Assembly (NCBI GenBank): GCA_022750295.1
Contig: JAKIVZ010000006.1
Span: forward strand, 1 to 64,000
From: Candidatus Lutacidiplasma silvani
GTDB lineage: Archaea; Thermoplasmatota; Thermoplasmata; Lutacidiplasmatales; UBA184
Direction: 5' to 3'
DNA length: 64,000 nt
Numbering within the stretch: the first letter of the stretch is position 1; every line of letters starts with the position of its first letter. A program made the position numbers and the translations under genes. Shown in pieces: positions 6,088 to 13,224 of the stretch. A model generated the notes under the pieces. That model saw nothing but the letters and a program-made list of their open reading frames with translations. It had not been told where the DNA came from and searched no databases.

Positions 6088-7257
6088 ATGTCTCGAACGG
6101 CCTGGGCAGGCGAGAAACCGATGAGCCAGATGCGACATCACGCGACGTACACGACGAGTTCGACACGCCCGCCCGAGACGGCCCCGGGCGACGGCCCGAT
6201 CCGGTCTCCTTCCCCGCCCTTGACGTCGCACATGCCAGAAACCAGCGAGCCGGAAGGCGCCGACGAACTGACCCGCGGTCTGACCCATCTCGGACTCACG
6301 GTCCACGAGGCCCAGATGTACCGGGCGGTCGTCCGCAACGGCCCCGTCACGGCCCGCCACGCCATCGCCGCGTCCCAGCTCGACCGGGCGACCGGGTACC
6401 GGATCCTCGCCCGCCTCGCGGCCCGTGGGCTCGTCGTGCCGACCGGCCGCCGCCCTCACCGGTTCGTCGGCCTCGACGTCGGCCGGCTCCTCGACCGCGC
6501 GACCGTGTTCCTGCGGGACGAGGTCGACCTCCACCGCGTCGTCCGCGCGATCTACCTCGCCGAGTCGCCCCCCCGCCCGACCGGCCTCGATGAATCCGAG
6601 GCGGTCCTCCGCCCCCCGACGACGCGCGTCCCGTTGCCCGGACGCACCCGCATCATTCCCAAGGACGAAGAGTTCGCTCCCGAACTGATCCAACGGATCT
6701 CCGCGGCCCGCCAGGAGATCCAGGCCCTCTCCCGTCCCGGCGTCTTCGCCGAGGAGGCCCGCGTCGACGTGGCGAAGGCGCTCCTCCGGGCCGCCGAGCG
6801 GGGAGTCCGCATCCAGCTGGTCGTGGATTACCGGGCGACCGACCTGGAATTCCTGGCCCGTCTCCTCGCCGGACCGACGGGGAGCGGCGCCCGCCCCGAC
6901 GTCCGGATCTGGACCCCCCAGCTCGCCCGCCTTTGGGTCGTCGACCGCCGGATCGCCGTCCGCGGCTTCGGCGCGCTCTCCCCACCCCGTCCGGGCGGCG
7001 GTCCGCTCGTCGAGTCGGAGGACGACGAGTTCGTGCGGCAGAACGCGATGCGATTCGAGGCCATCTGGCGCGAGGCGACGCCCCTCTCCCTCGGCGCGCA
7101 GGAGCTCGCGGAATACGGGCGGGAAGGCGCCCGCGCCTCCCCCAAGGCGGCGACTCCCGAGGCGTCCCGTCGCCCCCTCGCTCCTCGCGAGGCGTCGTAC
7201 CGGGCGTCCCTGCCCGACGCGACCGAGTTGGCGATCGGCCGGATGTTCCGCGCATAG
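6088..7257 (+). CDS. TrmB-family transcriptional regulator
   Basis: The 389-residue protein (from ATG 6088, preceded by GGAGGGG) has a ~55-residue disordered N-terminus, then a winged helix resembling TrmB: LTHLGLTVHEAQMYRAVVRN followed by AIAASQLDRATGYRILARLAARGLV (about residues 67-115). The middle part (about 190-305) contains the phospholipase-D-like effector region common in TrmB proteins (SAARQEIQALSRPGVF, ERGVRIQLVVDY, WTPQLARLWVVDRR). TrmB proteins sense sugars or other small metabolites and repress or activate transport genes. No transporter is adjacent, so the target is unclear; autoregulation is suggested by the palindrome at 6051-6065. An in-frame ATG at 6232 is an alternative start that would keep the HTH intact. 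Confidence 0.85.
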   Translation: MSRTAWAGEKPMSQMRHHATYTTSSTRPPETAPGDGPIRSPSPPLTSHMPETSEPEGADELTRGLTHLGLTVHEAQMYRAVVRNGPVTARHAIAASQLDRATGYRILARLAARGLVVPTGRRPHRFVGLDVGRLLDRATVFLRDEVDLHRVVRAIYLAESPPRPTGLDESEAVLRPPTTRVPLPGRTRIIPKDEEFAPELIQRISAARQEIQALSRPGVFAEEARVDVAKALLRAAERGVRIQLVVDYRATDLEFLARLLAGPTGSGARPDVRIWTPQLARLWVVDRRIAVRGFGALSPPRPGGGPLVESEDDEFVRQNAMRFEAIWREATPLSLGAQELAEYGREGARASPKAATPEASRRPLAPREASYRASLPDATELAIGRMFRA

Positions 7258-8651: not shown

Positions 8652-9614
8652 TCACGCCCCGGGAATCGCCCGCGTGGCGAGGACCGCGAATGCGAAGCCG
8701 AGCGCCAGCCCCGAGGTCGGCCCCAGCGCCCACCCGAGGAGGATGTCGCGCACCGGCTTCCCGAGGGCAGTCGTTCCGCCGCGGATCAGGCCGGCCCCGA
8801 TCATGGCCCCGACGAGGGCCTGGTTCATCGAGGTGAACAACCCGAACGCCACCGACACGAGGATCACCACCGATTGCGCGAGCTGGCAACTCGTCGCGGT
8901 CCGGGCGTCCAGTCGGACCACCTTGAACGCGACCTTCTCCAGGAGCGGCCGCCCCCACGTGAGCACGCCGAGCGCGAGGCCGACGCCCCCGATCGCGACC
9001 GCGGTGAGAACGGGGAACAATCCGGTCATGACGAACGCACCGGAGGCGTTGGCCACGTCGTTCGCTCCCATCGCGAACGACGCCGCCATCCCGACGGCCA
9101 CGAGTCCGGCGACGGCCCGGGGCCCGAGGGCGTTCGCTGGCGCGGGTCGCCACCGGTCCCCGACCCAGACGAAGAGGGCCGCGAGCCCGCAGGCGGCGAA
9201 CGGGGCGACCGCCCAGAGGACGACGAGGTCCCCGATCGTCCGCCAGTCGATCGCGATCCCGTCCGCGAAGCCGGCGCCGATCGCGGAGAAGACGAGGATC
9301 TGGATCGTGGACGTCGGGAGGGTGAGGAAGTTGTACGTGCTCGTGAGGAGGAACGCGGCCCCGACGATCGCCACCGCCGTCCCGAGGGCGACCGTCGGAG
9401 TCTGGAGGATGGCGTGGCCCACCGTCGCCACCACGCCGTGGCTCGCGAGCAGGGCCCCCAGGAGCACGAGCGGCGCCATCACGAGCAGCGCGGGACCGGT
9501 CCGGATCGCCCCGGCGGCCCGGGGCATCCCCATGCACGCCCCGGTGTAGTGGGCGCCCATGCTCACCGCGAACCCGAACGCGACGGCGACGAGCAGGATC
9601 TCGACGACGAGCAT
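8652..9614 (-). CDS. PiT-family inorganic phosphate transporter, atypical first repeat
   Basis: The 320-residue integral membrane protein has ~9-10 hydrophobic segments. The second half carries the PiT signature MGANDVANASGAF, diagnostic of PHO4/PiT permeases (H+ or Na+ coupled phosphate uptake). The first half has the matching repeat, but the signature is altered: MGAHYTGACMGMPRAAGA, so the usual GANDAANxxG asparagine and aspartate are replaced by His and Tyr. I chose ATG 9614, preceded by GAGGG, over a GTG at 9638. No PhoU-like regulator gene is adjacent. The change could alter ion coupling or substrate. Confidence 0.85.
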   Translation of the reverse strand: MLVVEILLVAVAFGFAVSMGAHYTGACMGMPRAAGAIRTGPALLVMAPLVLLGALLASHGVVATVGHAILQTPTVALGTAVAIVGAAFLLTSTYNFLTLPTSTIQILVFSAIGAGFADGIAIDWRTIGDLVVLWAVAPFAACGLAALFVWVGDRWRPAPANALGPRAVAGLVAVGMAASFAMGANDVANASGAFVMTGLFPVLTAVAIGGVGLALGVLTWGRPLLEKVAFKVVRLDARTATSCQLAQSVVILVSVAFGLFTSMNQALVGAMIGAGLIRGGTTALGKPVRDILLGWALGPTSGLALGFAFAVLATRAIPGA

Positions 9615-9702
9615 CAGCCCTCGTGACTCTGGGCGCACCGTGCCAGGGGGGCCGACCGGCGAGGGCCAAGAGCGGGGGAGGAACGACCCACGTGGCGCCC
9701 GA

Positions 9703-11919
9703 TCATTCGGCGAGCCTCCCGTCCCGGACCACGGGCGAACCGTCGACCAGAAGGTCGCCGCCGCGAAGGAAGAGCCACGCCCACCAGTCGGACCGGGTCC
9801 GGCCCCCCACCGGTTCGTTGCGACCCAGGTGCATCGAAATGGTGCCGAGCCCTTGGTCCTCCAGGAGCGGGGCGTTCGCGATTCGCTCGTTGAGTCCGAT
9901 CGACACGTAGGCGGGTCGGTCCCGACCTTCCCGGGCGCGCCCGTAGCTCTGGGCGAAGAGGTCCTGGCCGGCGTCGTACCGGAACGAAGTGAGCCGGCCC
10001 CCCGCGAACGTCCATCGCCCGCCGGAAAAGTCGCCGACCGAGTCCGATAGCCCGCCCGAGCTTCGGACGTTCGCCCGGAACGTCCCCTCGGCGAACGTCT
10101 CGTCGACGGCCACCGTCGCGACGCCCGCTGGGAGGGTGACCAGGCTCCAGTTCCCCGCGGCGGTCGGCCGGCCTACCGTCCCGTCGGAGACGACCGGCCG
10201 GGCGCCGCGAAGTCGGAGCCGAAGGTCGGTCCCGTTCGCGTGGACGATCCGCAGTTCGTGCCCCTTGGATAGGCGCCGGGCCACTCGACGCCCACGGTCG
10301 CGAAGCTCCTTCGGGTCCACGAGGGTGGCATCGAGCAGCTCGTGCCGCCAGCCCTCGAGGTCGACGCTGTACATCCGGGCCGAGGCCTCGGAGACGCGCC
10401 CGATCGCCATCTGCACCGACCGCGCTCCCGCCTTCGCGGCGGTCTGGTAGAGCGTATCTTCGTACTCGCCGAGTCGGAACCGCGTGGCCCGGGGGAGGGA
10501 ATGGAACCGTTCCCGGTCGCTGGGGCCGAAGAAGGTGACGAATGCGTCGGTGCGCTCGAGGGCCGCCTTCCGGTGGTCCCCCATCGCAGCCAGCGCCTTG
10601 GCGGGCACTTCGGTAGTGGCCGCCCAGTACGTCGGCTCGTCCTGGTAGAGCAAGAGCGGCCGCGCACCGAGACGGAGCGATTCCAGGACGAACGCGTTGC
10701 CGTAGTCGAGGCTCTCGGTCCATGCCTCGATCGTCACGCGCTCGCCCGCCCGGACTCGAAGGTACTCTCGCAGGATGCGGCGGGCCGACCGGCGTCGCTT
10801 CTCCGCGAGGTCCGGCCCCGGCGGCACGGGACCGGAAGGACGGAGCGGGCCCTTGAACCCCGGGTGCCCTGTCACCGCGAGCTCGTACCGTAACCGGTAC
10901 GCCGCCTCCGCCTCGTCGATGTCGGACTTTCGCGCCATCCATCGGAACGGGCCCGAACCCTCGGGAAACCCCACGATCGAACGCGTCAGCGACTCGCTGA
11001 GTTCGACCCGACCCCGGTAGTGGCGGGGCGGGGGTGCCGCCCGACCGACTCGGGCGAGCTCCGCCTCGGCGAGTCCTCGCCAGTGGGGCAGATCCGGTGC
11101 CACCACGATCTCGTACTGCGGGTGCCGGATCTTCCACCGTCGGAGGGCCAGCCCGTTCGCAGAGTGCGGGGGAGTCGCGAGGACCCGGACCGCCGGTCGG
11201 TCGGCAAGTCGCTGGTCGAGTTCCCCGAGGAACCGCAGCAGCTCCGATGCGGCCGAGTCCGAAGAGGAGCGCGTGTCACTCGGGCCCCCTCCGACGAACT
11301 CGACGCGGTCGAAGGTCCACGGCACGAGCCCGCTCGATGGGAGCTCGCGGCGCGCGAGCTCCGCCCCGTCGCGGTCCGGGCGAGCGGGGGATTCAACGGC
11401 CACGTGGAGGGTCATCGCGAGCCACGCCCAAGGACCGTGGAGTTCCAGGCCGACGAGGTCCCACGGAACCGAAGTCGAGACGGGGTCGGCACGGGGAGGG
11501 ACGGCATCGAACCGGCGAGGTCGGATCCCGTAGGCGTCCCACACGCGTCGGACGGTCATGTGACTGACGTGGAACTCCCGCGCGAGCGCCCGGGTCGACC
11601 ACGTCCGCCCTCCGGGAGGGGGACGAGCGACCGTGGCCCGGACGATTGCCTGGAAGTCCTCCTCGGGAACTCGTCCCCGCCGGCCCGAGGACGGCCGGTC
11701 GGCCAGCCCCGCGAGGCGTGCGGCGAGGAACCGTCGGCGCCACCGACCGACGCTTTGGCGACTCCGCCCCCGGCGTCGGCCGATCTCGAGGTCTTGCAGT
11801 CCCTCGGCGGCGAGCAGGATCAGGTCGGCCCGCTCGCCGGAGGGACCGCCTCGCGTCCGCCGCCGCAGGAGACCCGCCCGCTCCTCGGGGCTTAGGAAGA
11901 CCGGGGGGGCGACTCGCAT
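9703..11919 (-). CDS. chimera: IS630-transposase-like N-half fused to M29-aminopeptidase-like C-half
   Basis: The protein has 738 residues. Residues ~8-135 match the two HTH domains of IS630-family transposases (LSPEERAGLLRR, LLAAEGLQDLEIGRRRGRSR, VGRWRRRFLAARLAGLADRP, then WSTRALAREFHVSHMTVRRV). Residues ~150-315 resemble the IS630 DDE domain (WDLVGLELHGPWAWLAMTLH; FLGELDQRLAD; ALRRWKIRHPQYEIVVAP; PHWRGLAEAELAR), but the positions of both catalytic aspartates are changed (HVAVES, LATPPHS) and only the Glu (285) aligns. Residues ~370-738 match M29 aminopeptidases (AmpS/AmpT; RILREYLRVRAGERV to LLVDGSPVVRDG). The usual metal ligands appear replaced (LPAGV, VSIGLN, GTISMHLG, SDWWAW). I infer a domesticated, non-catalytic DNA-binding or sensor protein. 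The frame is intact and has a TATA-like GTTTTGTA 27 bases upstream. Confidence 0.8.
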   Translation of the reverse strand: MRVAPPVFLSPEERAGLLRRRTRGGPSGERADLILLAAEGLQDLEIGRRRGRSRQSVGRWRRRFLAARLAGLADRPSSGRRGRVPEEDFQAIVRATVARPPPGGRTWSTRALAREFHVSHMTVRRVWDAYGIRPRRFDAVPPRADPVSTSVPWDLVGLELHGPWAWLAMTLHVAVESPARPDRDGAELARRELPSSGLVPWTFDRVEFVGGGPSDTRSSSDSAASELLRFLGELDQRLADRPAVRVLATPPHSANGLALRRWKIRHPQYEIVVAPDLPHWRGLAEAELARVGRAAPPPRHYRGRVELSESLTRSIVGFPEGSGPFRWMARKSDIDEAEAAYRLRYELAVTGHPGFKGPLRPSGPVPPGPDLAEKRRRSARRILREYLRVRAGERVTIEAWTESLDYGNAFVLESLRLGARPLLLYQDEPTYWAATTEVPAKALAAMGDHRKAALERTDAFVTFFGPSDRERFHSLPRATRFRLGEYEDTLYQTAAKAGARSVQMAIGRVSEASARMYSVDLEGWRHELLDATLVDPKELRDRGRRVARRLSKGHELRIVHANGTDLRLRLRGARPVVSDGTVGRPTAAGNWSLVTLPAGVATVAVDETFAEGTFRANVRSSGGLSDSVGDFSGGRWTFAGGRLTSFRYDAGQDLFAQSYGRAREGRDRPAYVSIGLNERIANAPLLEDQGLGTISMHLGRNEPVGGRTRSDWWAWLFLRGGDLLVDGSPVVRDGRLAE

Positions 11920-12040: not shown

Positions 12041-12508
12041 ATGTCGTCCTCGCGCCCCGCCGCCAAGGCAAAGAGCCACGCGCCGAAGTCGAACGCGTCC
12101 GAAATCGCCCCTGGCGTATTCGTCGGGGGGTGGAACGACGCCGCGGAATTCGTCGGGGTCCGGGTCTGTGTCCTCGACGACCCGCCGGAGGAACCCCTCC
12201 CGGGGTCGACGCACGTACCGATCTACGACGAGAAGCAGGACGCCGCCCTCCCGGCAAACCTCGATCGAGTCGCCCGTCTCGTGGAAGACGCGAGAGGAAA
12301 CGGCAAGCCGGTGATCGTGTTCTGTGGTCACGGCATCCGTCGGGGATCGCTGGCGGGGGCCTGGTACCTTCACCGACAGAGCGGCATCAGTCTCGACGAG
12401 GCGTACGAGCGGGTCCGGGCCGTCCGACCGAAGATCGAGGAAGGGAAGAGCTGGATCGGGCACTGGCCCCCGCCCGACGTCCCGTCCGCCCGACGTACGT
12501 CGGCCTGA
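12041..12508 (+). CDS. dual-specificity phosphatase-like protein
   Basis: The 155-residue protein has a charged N-terminal tail of ~20 residues, then a compact cysteine-phosphatase fold. The catalytic P-loop is VFCGHGIRRGS: C95-x5-R101, the CX5R signature of protein tyrosine and dual-specificity phosphatases. Upstream VLDDPPEE offers a candidate general-acid Asp at 46 or 47. The opening IAPGVFVGGWNDAAEF resembles the start of archaeal DSP domains. Substrates may be phosphotyrosine, phosphoserine or a small phosphoester. It is followed after 8 bases by a methyltransferase gene and is probably co-transcribed with it. ATG 12041 was chosen because the frame upstream has no family similarity. Confidence 0.8.
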   Translation: MSSSRPAAKAKSHAPKSNASEIAPGVFVGGWNDAAEFVGVRVCVLDDPPEEPLPGSTHVPIYDEKQDAALPANLDRVARLVEDARGNGKPVIVFCGHGIRRGSLAGAWYLHRQSGISLDEAYERVRAVRPKIEEGKSWIGHWPPPDVPSARRTSA

Positions 12509-12516
12509 GAGAATCG

Positions 12517-13224
12517 ATGGAGCGGGAGACGGACCCCGACGTGGCGTGGGTCGAAGCGCTGGCCGGCGCGACTCGCCCCGCGGCCCAGCGAGCGATCGAC
12601 GAAGCCGCCGGAGAGAATCGGCTGTTCCGGTCCATCGCGGCGGAACACGCGAAGGAAGGGCGGGCCTCCTACATCGAGATCGACGCCCCCCTCGAGCTGC
12701 ATGCGCTCGTCCGGCTCCGAAAGCCGCGACACGTCGTCGAGGTCGGGGTCTCGTCGGGTGTCTCGTCGGCGTACCTCCTCCACGCCCTCGAACGGAACGG
12801 CCTCGGAACGCTGCACTCGGTCGACCTCCCCCAGCTGGACCGAACGACCGGATCGACTCGGCCCCGGCACTCCTGGTCGCTTCCGAACGGTCGATCGACC
12901 GGATGGGCCGTTCCGTTCCCGCTCCGGAAGCGGTGGGACCTCCGTCTCGGGGACAAACGGGTCGTCCTCCCGATGCTGGCCCAGGAGCTGCCCCGAATCG
13001 ACCTGCTCGTCTACGACGTTCCGCACGAGGACTCCGCGACGTTCCGGGAGTTCCTGTCGCTCGACCCCCGGTTTCCGGCCCATGGGATCGCGATCGCCGA
13101 TCACGGACCGACCGGGGGGTTGTGCGGCGGGCTCCGGCGGTGGGCGATACGGCGGGGCGCAACCCCCGTCCGGCGGGCCGGCCTCGGACTCTTTGGATTC
13201 CGGGCCGGCCCTCGCGCGCGGTGA
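12517..13224 (+). CDS. class I SAM-dependent methyltransferase
   Basis: The 235-residue protein has the SAM-binding motif I region HVVEVGVSSGVSSAYLLHAL (about 72-91), followed by an acidic residue at the end of strand 2 (SVDLP, D103) that would contact the ribose of SAM. DLLVYDVPHED and an ending IADHGP loop are typical of the Methyltransf_24/caffeoyl-CoA-methylase-like group. The substrate is unknown. It forms an operon with the phosphatase-like gene 8 bases upstream. Two other proteins of similar fold are encoded in this window (28756 and 62662). Confidence 0.8.
   Translation: MERETDPDVAWVEALAGATRPAAQRAIDEAAGENRLFRSIAAEHAKEGRASYIEIDAPLELHALVRLRKPRHVVEVGVSSGVSSAYLLHALERNGLGTLHSVDLPQLDRTTGSTRPRHSWSLPNGRSTGWAVPFPLRKRWDLRLGDKRVVLPMLAQELPRIDLLVYDVPHEDSATFREFLSLDPRFPAHGIAIADHGPTGGLCGGLRRWAIRRGATPVRRAGLGLFGFRAGPRAR

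Follow-up and report, generated by a model that had tools for sequence, protein, structure and literature searches.

A conserved fusion of an apparently inactive IS630-family transposase and an M29-like domain, with putative relic transposon ends at the locus, in Candidatus Lutacidiplasma silvani

The window analyzed here, the whole stretch of 64,000 nucleotides of Candidatus Lutacidiplasma silvani contig JAKIVZ010000006.1, contains a gene which joins an IS630-derived N-terminal half to an M29-like C-terminal half, together with the neighboring genes and putative regulatory elements collected in Table 1. The intact 738-codon frame claimed by the sequence-only reading is present and lies on the minus strand, where positions 9703-11919 form a single open frame of 738 aa. 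Searches across the genus, which belongs to the acid-soil Thermoplasmata, found full-length, stop-free orthologs (719-745 aa, 44-61% identity) in at least 13 further species. Several of the named ortholog records are Thermoplasmata MAGs, and the isolates AcS13-54 and AcS1-45 are included in a table of Ca. Lutacidiplasmatales genomes from pine-forest soils (PMC9287336). In 14 orthologs the target frame shows no stop codon; the remaining five frames contain 0-19 stops each, and only one such frame, in one ortholog, is stop-free.

Table 1. Features of the fusion locus, with positions in the window.
Feature	Position	Strand	Evidence
Fusion gene, IS630-derived N-terminal half and M29-like C-terminal half	9703..11919	-	738 codons and stop; orthologs; omega
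Paired helix-turn-helix DNA-binding region, residues 1-149	11473..11919	-	Pfam HTH_32, HTH_23, HTH_28; NCBIfam IS630; ~50% mean pairwise identity
Vestigial DDE (RNase H-like) region, residues 150-300, triad lost	11020..11472	-	No DDE_3 match; 29% mean identity; order of strands and helices in the model fits RNase H fold
M29-like domain without metal ligands, residues 370-738	9706..10812	-	Foldseek to PepS/AmpS/AmpT/NicX; PepS profile 5e-7; paralog alignment
R element, putative relic right inverted repeat of an IS630 element, within codons 342-351	10869..10894	-	Best site of left-element matrix; synonymous constraint; overlaps place of transposase stop
Probable nested gene for a free M29-like protein, starting at the internal GTG of codon 365	9703..10827	-	Start 48 nt after GTTAC in 11 orthologs with R element
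TATA-like TTCAAG, 30 nt before internal start	10852..10857	-	By eye; similar CAAG boxes upstream of some free-standing paralogs
L element, putative relic left inverted repeat in divergent promoter, GATACGGTACTGGCTTAAAGTTCCAA	11974..11999	+	14/14 orthologous loci; unique strict match; 48 nt before DSPc ATG
DSPc-family phosphatase gene, divergent from fusion	12041..12508	+	Pfam DSPc E 2.5e-11
Methyltransferase-like gene 3' of DSPc	12517..13224	+	Named by eye; no Pfam match
PiT-type phosphate transporter gene, downstream of fusion, same strand	8652..9638	-	PHO4 E 2e-32

The fusion gene is divergent from the DSPc gene in every locus, the methyltransferase-like gene adjoins DSPc in most loci, and PiT lies downstream of the fusion in most loci, with the exception of L029, L031 and L059. 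DSPc was found in 34 of the 78 genomes of the genus and the fusion only beside DSPc; absences of either gene are uncertain, because many genomes are incomplete. Elsewhere in the window, positions 6088-7257 of the plus strand encode a TrmB-type HTH together with a domain that weakly matches a PLD-like model (E 0.0015), a further combination of regulator and enzyme fold in the vicinity.

For the N-terminal half, IS630-type HTH domains and a DDE-like domain had been read from the sequence, and profile searches recovered only the former. IS630 HTH models match residues 29-146 (HTH_32, E 4e-14; HTH_23, 5e-6; and also HTH_28), and the NCBIfam IS630 model NF033545 gives a partial match to the same residues, with 69 bits against a cut-off of 100. 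The Pfam search found no DDE_3 match in the fusion protein, whereas L017, an intact IS630 relative of the same genome, scores 72 bits. The order of strands and helices in the predicted model of this region fits an RNase H fold, its best match in PDB, although weak (E 0.034), is the Mos1 transpososome, and the residual C-terminal PFxWxAxxxEI motif of IS630 type is kept. Loss of the DDE active site had been proposed on the basis of two replaced residues, with Glu285 kept; the loss is borne out but involves the whole triad, as none of the three DDE positions shows a conserved acidic residue in the 14 orthologs and the column of Glu285 is occupied by E,V,V,I,E,A,A,L,A,L,L,A,L,L.

The M29-like half shows only a weak match to Peptidase_M29 (Pfam PF02073) in residues 374-654, with an E value of 0.012 and 14.9 bits against a 27-bit cut-off, which is passed by the ortholog L031 (27.5 bits) and barely missed by L033 (26.8 bits). 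AlphaFold confidence in this half is low (pLDDT of 26-81 by block); Foldseek matched the model to the PDB structures of PepS, AmpS and AmpT with E values of 4e-11 to 1e-8, and also to NicX, a dioxygenase of related fold. Searched against PDB, the full ortholog profile gave nothing significant and a profile of the M29-like relatives and paralogs was needed instead, which matched PepS (5e-7). The predicted fold of the C-terminal half is thus that of M29, in agreement with the sequence-only reading, and the loss of the metal ligands that it described was also confirmed by alignment. The two metals of M29 are bound by Glu, Glu, His, His and Asp. In the alignment PTEEVF is paired with PAGVAT, and SIGLN, GTISMHLG and SDWWAW stand at the later motifs. 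These ligand motifs are absent in all 17 fused or free-standing relatives aligned, including the eight free-standing paralogs of the same genome, and their loss is therefore not a result of the fusion. As far as the alignment allows, the M29-like family of the genus is a family of pseudo-peptidases, or of proteins with another activity, irrespective of the fusion. NicX, a 2,5-dihydroxypyridine dioxygenase, binds iron through His, His and Asp, and its ligand motifs are absent as well, SHIGWGL and CHLD of 7cn3 aligning with SIGLN and SDWWAW.

The eight paralogs are distributed over the 2.1-Mb genome (G000 contigs C5, C8, C11 (three), C16, C20 and C25; loci L018-L023). Most genomes of the genus have several copies of this expanded pseudo-peptidase family, whose role is unknown.

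Mean identity across the orthologs is ~50% in the HTH region, 29% in the DDE-like region, 47% in the C-terminal part of the latter and 61% in the M29-like region. The high conservation of the M29-like half, with invariant polar residues such as D427, E428, H449, D468 and H560, would also agree with an enzyme of different, unrecognised chemistry which the N-terminal half only ties to DNA or to its own promoter. We regard this as unlikely, without dismissing it: the fold family includes NicX, whose chemistry is different from that of M29, and eight free-standing paralogs occur in the genome; however, the metal-binding motifs of M29 and NicX are both absent and no other catalytic signature was recognised.

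Alignment of the divergent promoters of the orthologs shows a 26-bp element, roughly GATAAGTCn(10)AAGTTCCAG, which a leave-one-out matrix locates at the same place in 14 of 14 loci (L element). The distance from the G of GTTCC to the DSPc ATG is 48 nt in 12 of these loci and 47 nt in the other two; the element is also present in a second DSPc locus of G044, where the fusion is truncated, and a hand count gives 48 nt there, so that the spacing is 47-48 nt in 15 of 15 loci. This second DSPc-methyltransferase locus (L154, G044:C121:19000-23500) contains a fusion remnant with a match of ~98 aa and, since G044 is marked as 8% contaminated, may belong to another species. At 17 DSPc loci that have no intact fusion the promoter contains no L element; among them are G012, in which PiT and DSPc are directly divergent with no fusion between them, and G049, whose fusion copy is shortened and degenerate. 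The strict pattern WTAMG-N13-GTTMCA has a single match in the 2.1-Mb genome and low numbers of matches in other genomes: nine in 13 fusion-free genomes versus two in a reversed control. As the fusion-free count is not far above that of the control, no regulon beyond the locus is shown, and a wider regulon was rejected, the other sites not having been examined individually. The matrix gave no strong L-type element for any of the other IS630-derived proteins in the genus. The L element was found after inspection of these same loci and the orthologs are related, therefore significance values are only indicative.

With the matrix built from left elements only, 10 of 13 orthologs have their best coding-sequence site at codons 342-350, in the orientation opposite to that of the L element (R element). 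The codon for Leu343 is TTA in 11 of the 13 orthologs, TTA being used for 15 of 999 Leu codons (1.5%). Ranking 246 amino-acid-conserved columns by unusual codon choice placed codon 343 first, GTT349 third and Thr 350 seventh. Judged from this codon usage, the DNA of the R element appears to be selected beyond the protein sequence, at the synonymous level. The copy of the window itself is weaker, with GTGACAG for GTTACAG and a score of 5.9.

The intact IS630 elements of the genus show an inverted repeat which overlaps the 3' end of the transposase, and L078 and L083 encode LSVTAH followed by a stop codon at this place. The fusion reads LAVTGH-PGFK there; the stop is gone and the frame runs on into the M29-like gene. 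The repeats of intact elements read CTAGTGnG-nTGTaaC-...-TTATnCCGG, and in the 3'-end repeat of L017 the spacing from TG to CCGG is 28 nt, equal to that of the left element of L032. Core and spacing are shared between the ends of intact elements and the L and R elements; the matrix finds an end in only two of five intact copies (L017 and L078), and the ends of L074 and L077 differ. The inner ~26 bp of both repeats are retained, while the outer ~8 bp (CTAGTGNG), which would be the cut site, are lost. On these comparisons, both terminal inverted repeats of an ancestral IS630 element appear to survive.

In all 11 orthologs with an R element, GTTAC is followed at exactly 48 nt by an in-frame ATG (seven) or GTG (four), a spacing equal to that on the DSPc side, and in the two orthologs without the element, L031 and L032, the internal start codon is also absent. 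The TTCAAG box is located at TATA distance and resembles, by eye, boxes 5' of some free-standing paralogs. The R-linked internal start and this box make it probable that the M29-like domain is also produced by itself; the fused protein must be of importance as well, given that the frame remains complete in L031 and L032. It could be argued that the locus encodes two separate functional products, an IS630-derived regulator on its old ends and an internally promoted M29-like protein, with the fusion as a tolerated by-product of stop loss. The joint presence of internal start and R element in 11 orthologs and their joint loss in two would agree with this, as would the free-standing state of all other M29-like relatives in the genome. 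However, a stop between the halves has reappeared in none of the orthologs, and in L031 and L032 only the fusion can supply the M29-like part, so we judge that separate products are an unlikely account of the locus.

The fixed 47-48 nt to the DSPc start, in the absence of binding data for the fusion protein, could also be explained if the L element were an ordinary DSPc promoter element for another factor, its likeness to an IS630 end being coincidental. We find this improbable: where no intact fusion is present the DSPc promoters lack the element, its strict pattern has no other match in the genome, and an inverted second copy lies exactly at the expected right end of the transposon.

Codon models gave an omega of ~0.06 overall and 0.05-0.15 by region, and simple counting a median dN/dS of 0.42 for the whole gene, with 0.73 in the DDE region; with synonymous sites close to saturation, omega is informative for direction only, and the counting value suggests that the DDE region may evolve almost freely. 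Close pairs were uninformative, G065 and G044 differing at ~3 sites. Within these limits, the fusion behaves as a conserved gene under purifying selection rather than a chance insertion, in line with the search for the same fusion in related genomes. That it is a functionless decaying insertion or a chance open frame is scarcely credible and was ruled out, in spite of a GC content of 71% which makes long frames common, the 29% identity of the DDE region and the degenerate copy of G049, by stop-free orthologs in at least 13 other species, the low omega and the fixed neighborhood and spacing.

A tree of DSPc and methyltransferase sequences is weakly supported and shows loci with and without the fusion intermixed, with L088/L091 as a supported pair of a fusion and a non-fusion locus (support 86). 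The tree is too weak to date the insertion; the intermixing and this pair suggest, but do not prove, one old insertion with repeated loss.

Among known systems, the locus resembles the IS630 family of insertion sequences (IS630-Tc1-mariner group) in the HTH pair, the PFxWxAxxxEI motif and both inner inverted repeats, which are placed correctly. Relatives with intact DDE and full ends exist in the same genus (L017, L078 and L083); unlike these, the fusion lacks the DDE triad, the stop codon and the outer ends, occupies one fixed locus with conserved neighbors and is joined to another protein. The C-terminal half resembles peptidase family M29 (AmpT, AmpS and PepS) and NicX in overall fold and sequence profile but differs in the absence of both sets of metal ligands, the fused DNA-binding domain and its membership of a multi-copy pseudo-peptidase family. 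Plants and animals have well-documented transcription factors which derive from transposases. FHY3/FAR1 are transposase-derived host transcription factors (PMC6000157) and domesticated pogo transposases, from within the IS630-Tc1-mariner group, are host genes (PMC7386202); both cases are eukaryotic, whereas the present fusion is archaeal. CSB-PGBD3 also joins a transposase to a host protein, is made beside the host protein alone and is reported to regulate nearby genes (PMC3459987); it is a primate piggyBac fusion made by alternative splicing, while the present one is archaeal, derives from IS630 and would depend on stop loss and an internal promoter. No archaeal or other prokaryotic regulator derived from a DDE-type transposase was found in the literature searched, which left out most subscription papers.

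Many other IS630-like proteins of the genus are free-standing, stop-free and of ~330-415 aa; their HTH domains are strong, and DDE_3 is matched weakly or not at all (L075, L076, L079-L082, L084-L086, L152, L153 and L155), and form several look-alike groups across species. L155 (G040:C3:34000-45500) contains three IS630-derived HTH proteins within ~6.5 kb. Long HTH frames in G001 and G002 were rejected as further fusions, the IS630-like frames there having 364 aa. A radiation of domesticated IS630 proteins has probably taken place in the genus.

Taking orthologs at a fixed locus, purifying selection and lost catalysis as the criterion for a domesticated transposase, the fusion meets it. The description of the protein as a double pseudo-enzyme and domesticated transposon protein is supported by the orthologs, purifying selection, the fixed neighborhood, the loss of the DDE triad and the better conservation of HTH than of DDE; none of the conditions named by the sequence-only reading as refuting it was fulfilled. 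The strongest evidence, which that reading could not see, is that the two transposon ends persist as conserved elements with a fixed spacing to flanking start codons, one of them within the coding sequence. Of its proposed role as a DNA-binding sensor or scaffold, the DNA-binding regulator is supported by comparative evidence, with binding inferred, while a sensor function of the M29-like half remains an inference only.

We consider it likely that an IS630 element was domesticated whole at this locus and that the dead transposase-M29-like fusion is a local transcription factor acting on its own relic repeats; binding and regulation are inferred, without data on binding, expression or transcript starts. 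An IS630-family insertion sequence would have landed, in an ancestor of the genus, between a DSPc-phosphatase gene and an M29-like gene. As the sequences show, the transposase has lost the DDE triad and the stop codon, and its frame now crosses the right end of the element and continues into the M29-like gene; selection has maintained the HTH pair, the inner repeats and the open frame, and the outer tips are gone. Each repeat lies 47-48 nt 5' of an outward start, that of DSPc on the left and the internal M29 start on the right. The fusion protein is inferred to bind both repeats, as operators, through its HTH domains and to exert an autoregulating local control of DSPc(-methyltransferase), the fusion itself and the nested M29-like(-PiT) unit. 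Archaeal activators commonly bind just upstream of TATA/BRE, and the repeats occupy the corresponding place relative to the expected TATA/BRE position; activation is therefore weakly favored over repression, the direction of regulation being inferred. Since no catalytic metal site is recognisable in it, the M29-like half probably binds a ligand or partner and would modulate the switch; its assignment as a ligand or partner sensor is a guess.

We remain evenly divided on the fullest form of this proposal, in which the complete IS630 element, protein and both ends, was domesticated into a self-contained regulatory cassette with a dead peptidase-fold ligand sensor. The two relic ends would be bound by the protein and act as outward promoters of equal geometry, one for the phosphatase and the other for a nested, separately expressed copy of the sensor and the phosphate transporter, and the cassette would be one of several radiated IS630-derived regulators of the genus. 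The putative transposon ends of this locus remain legible at the level of single bases, and one of them is apparently kept inside a coding sequence by synonymous constraint. The fusion locus would provide a model, open to direct test, of the way in which an insertion sequence may turn into a regulator, and of the survival of a nested gene within a transposon read-through.
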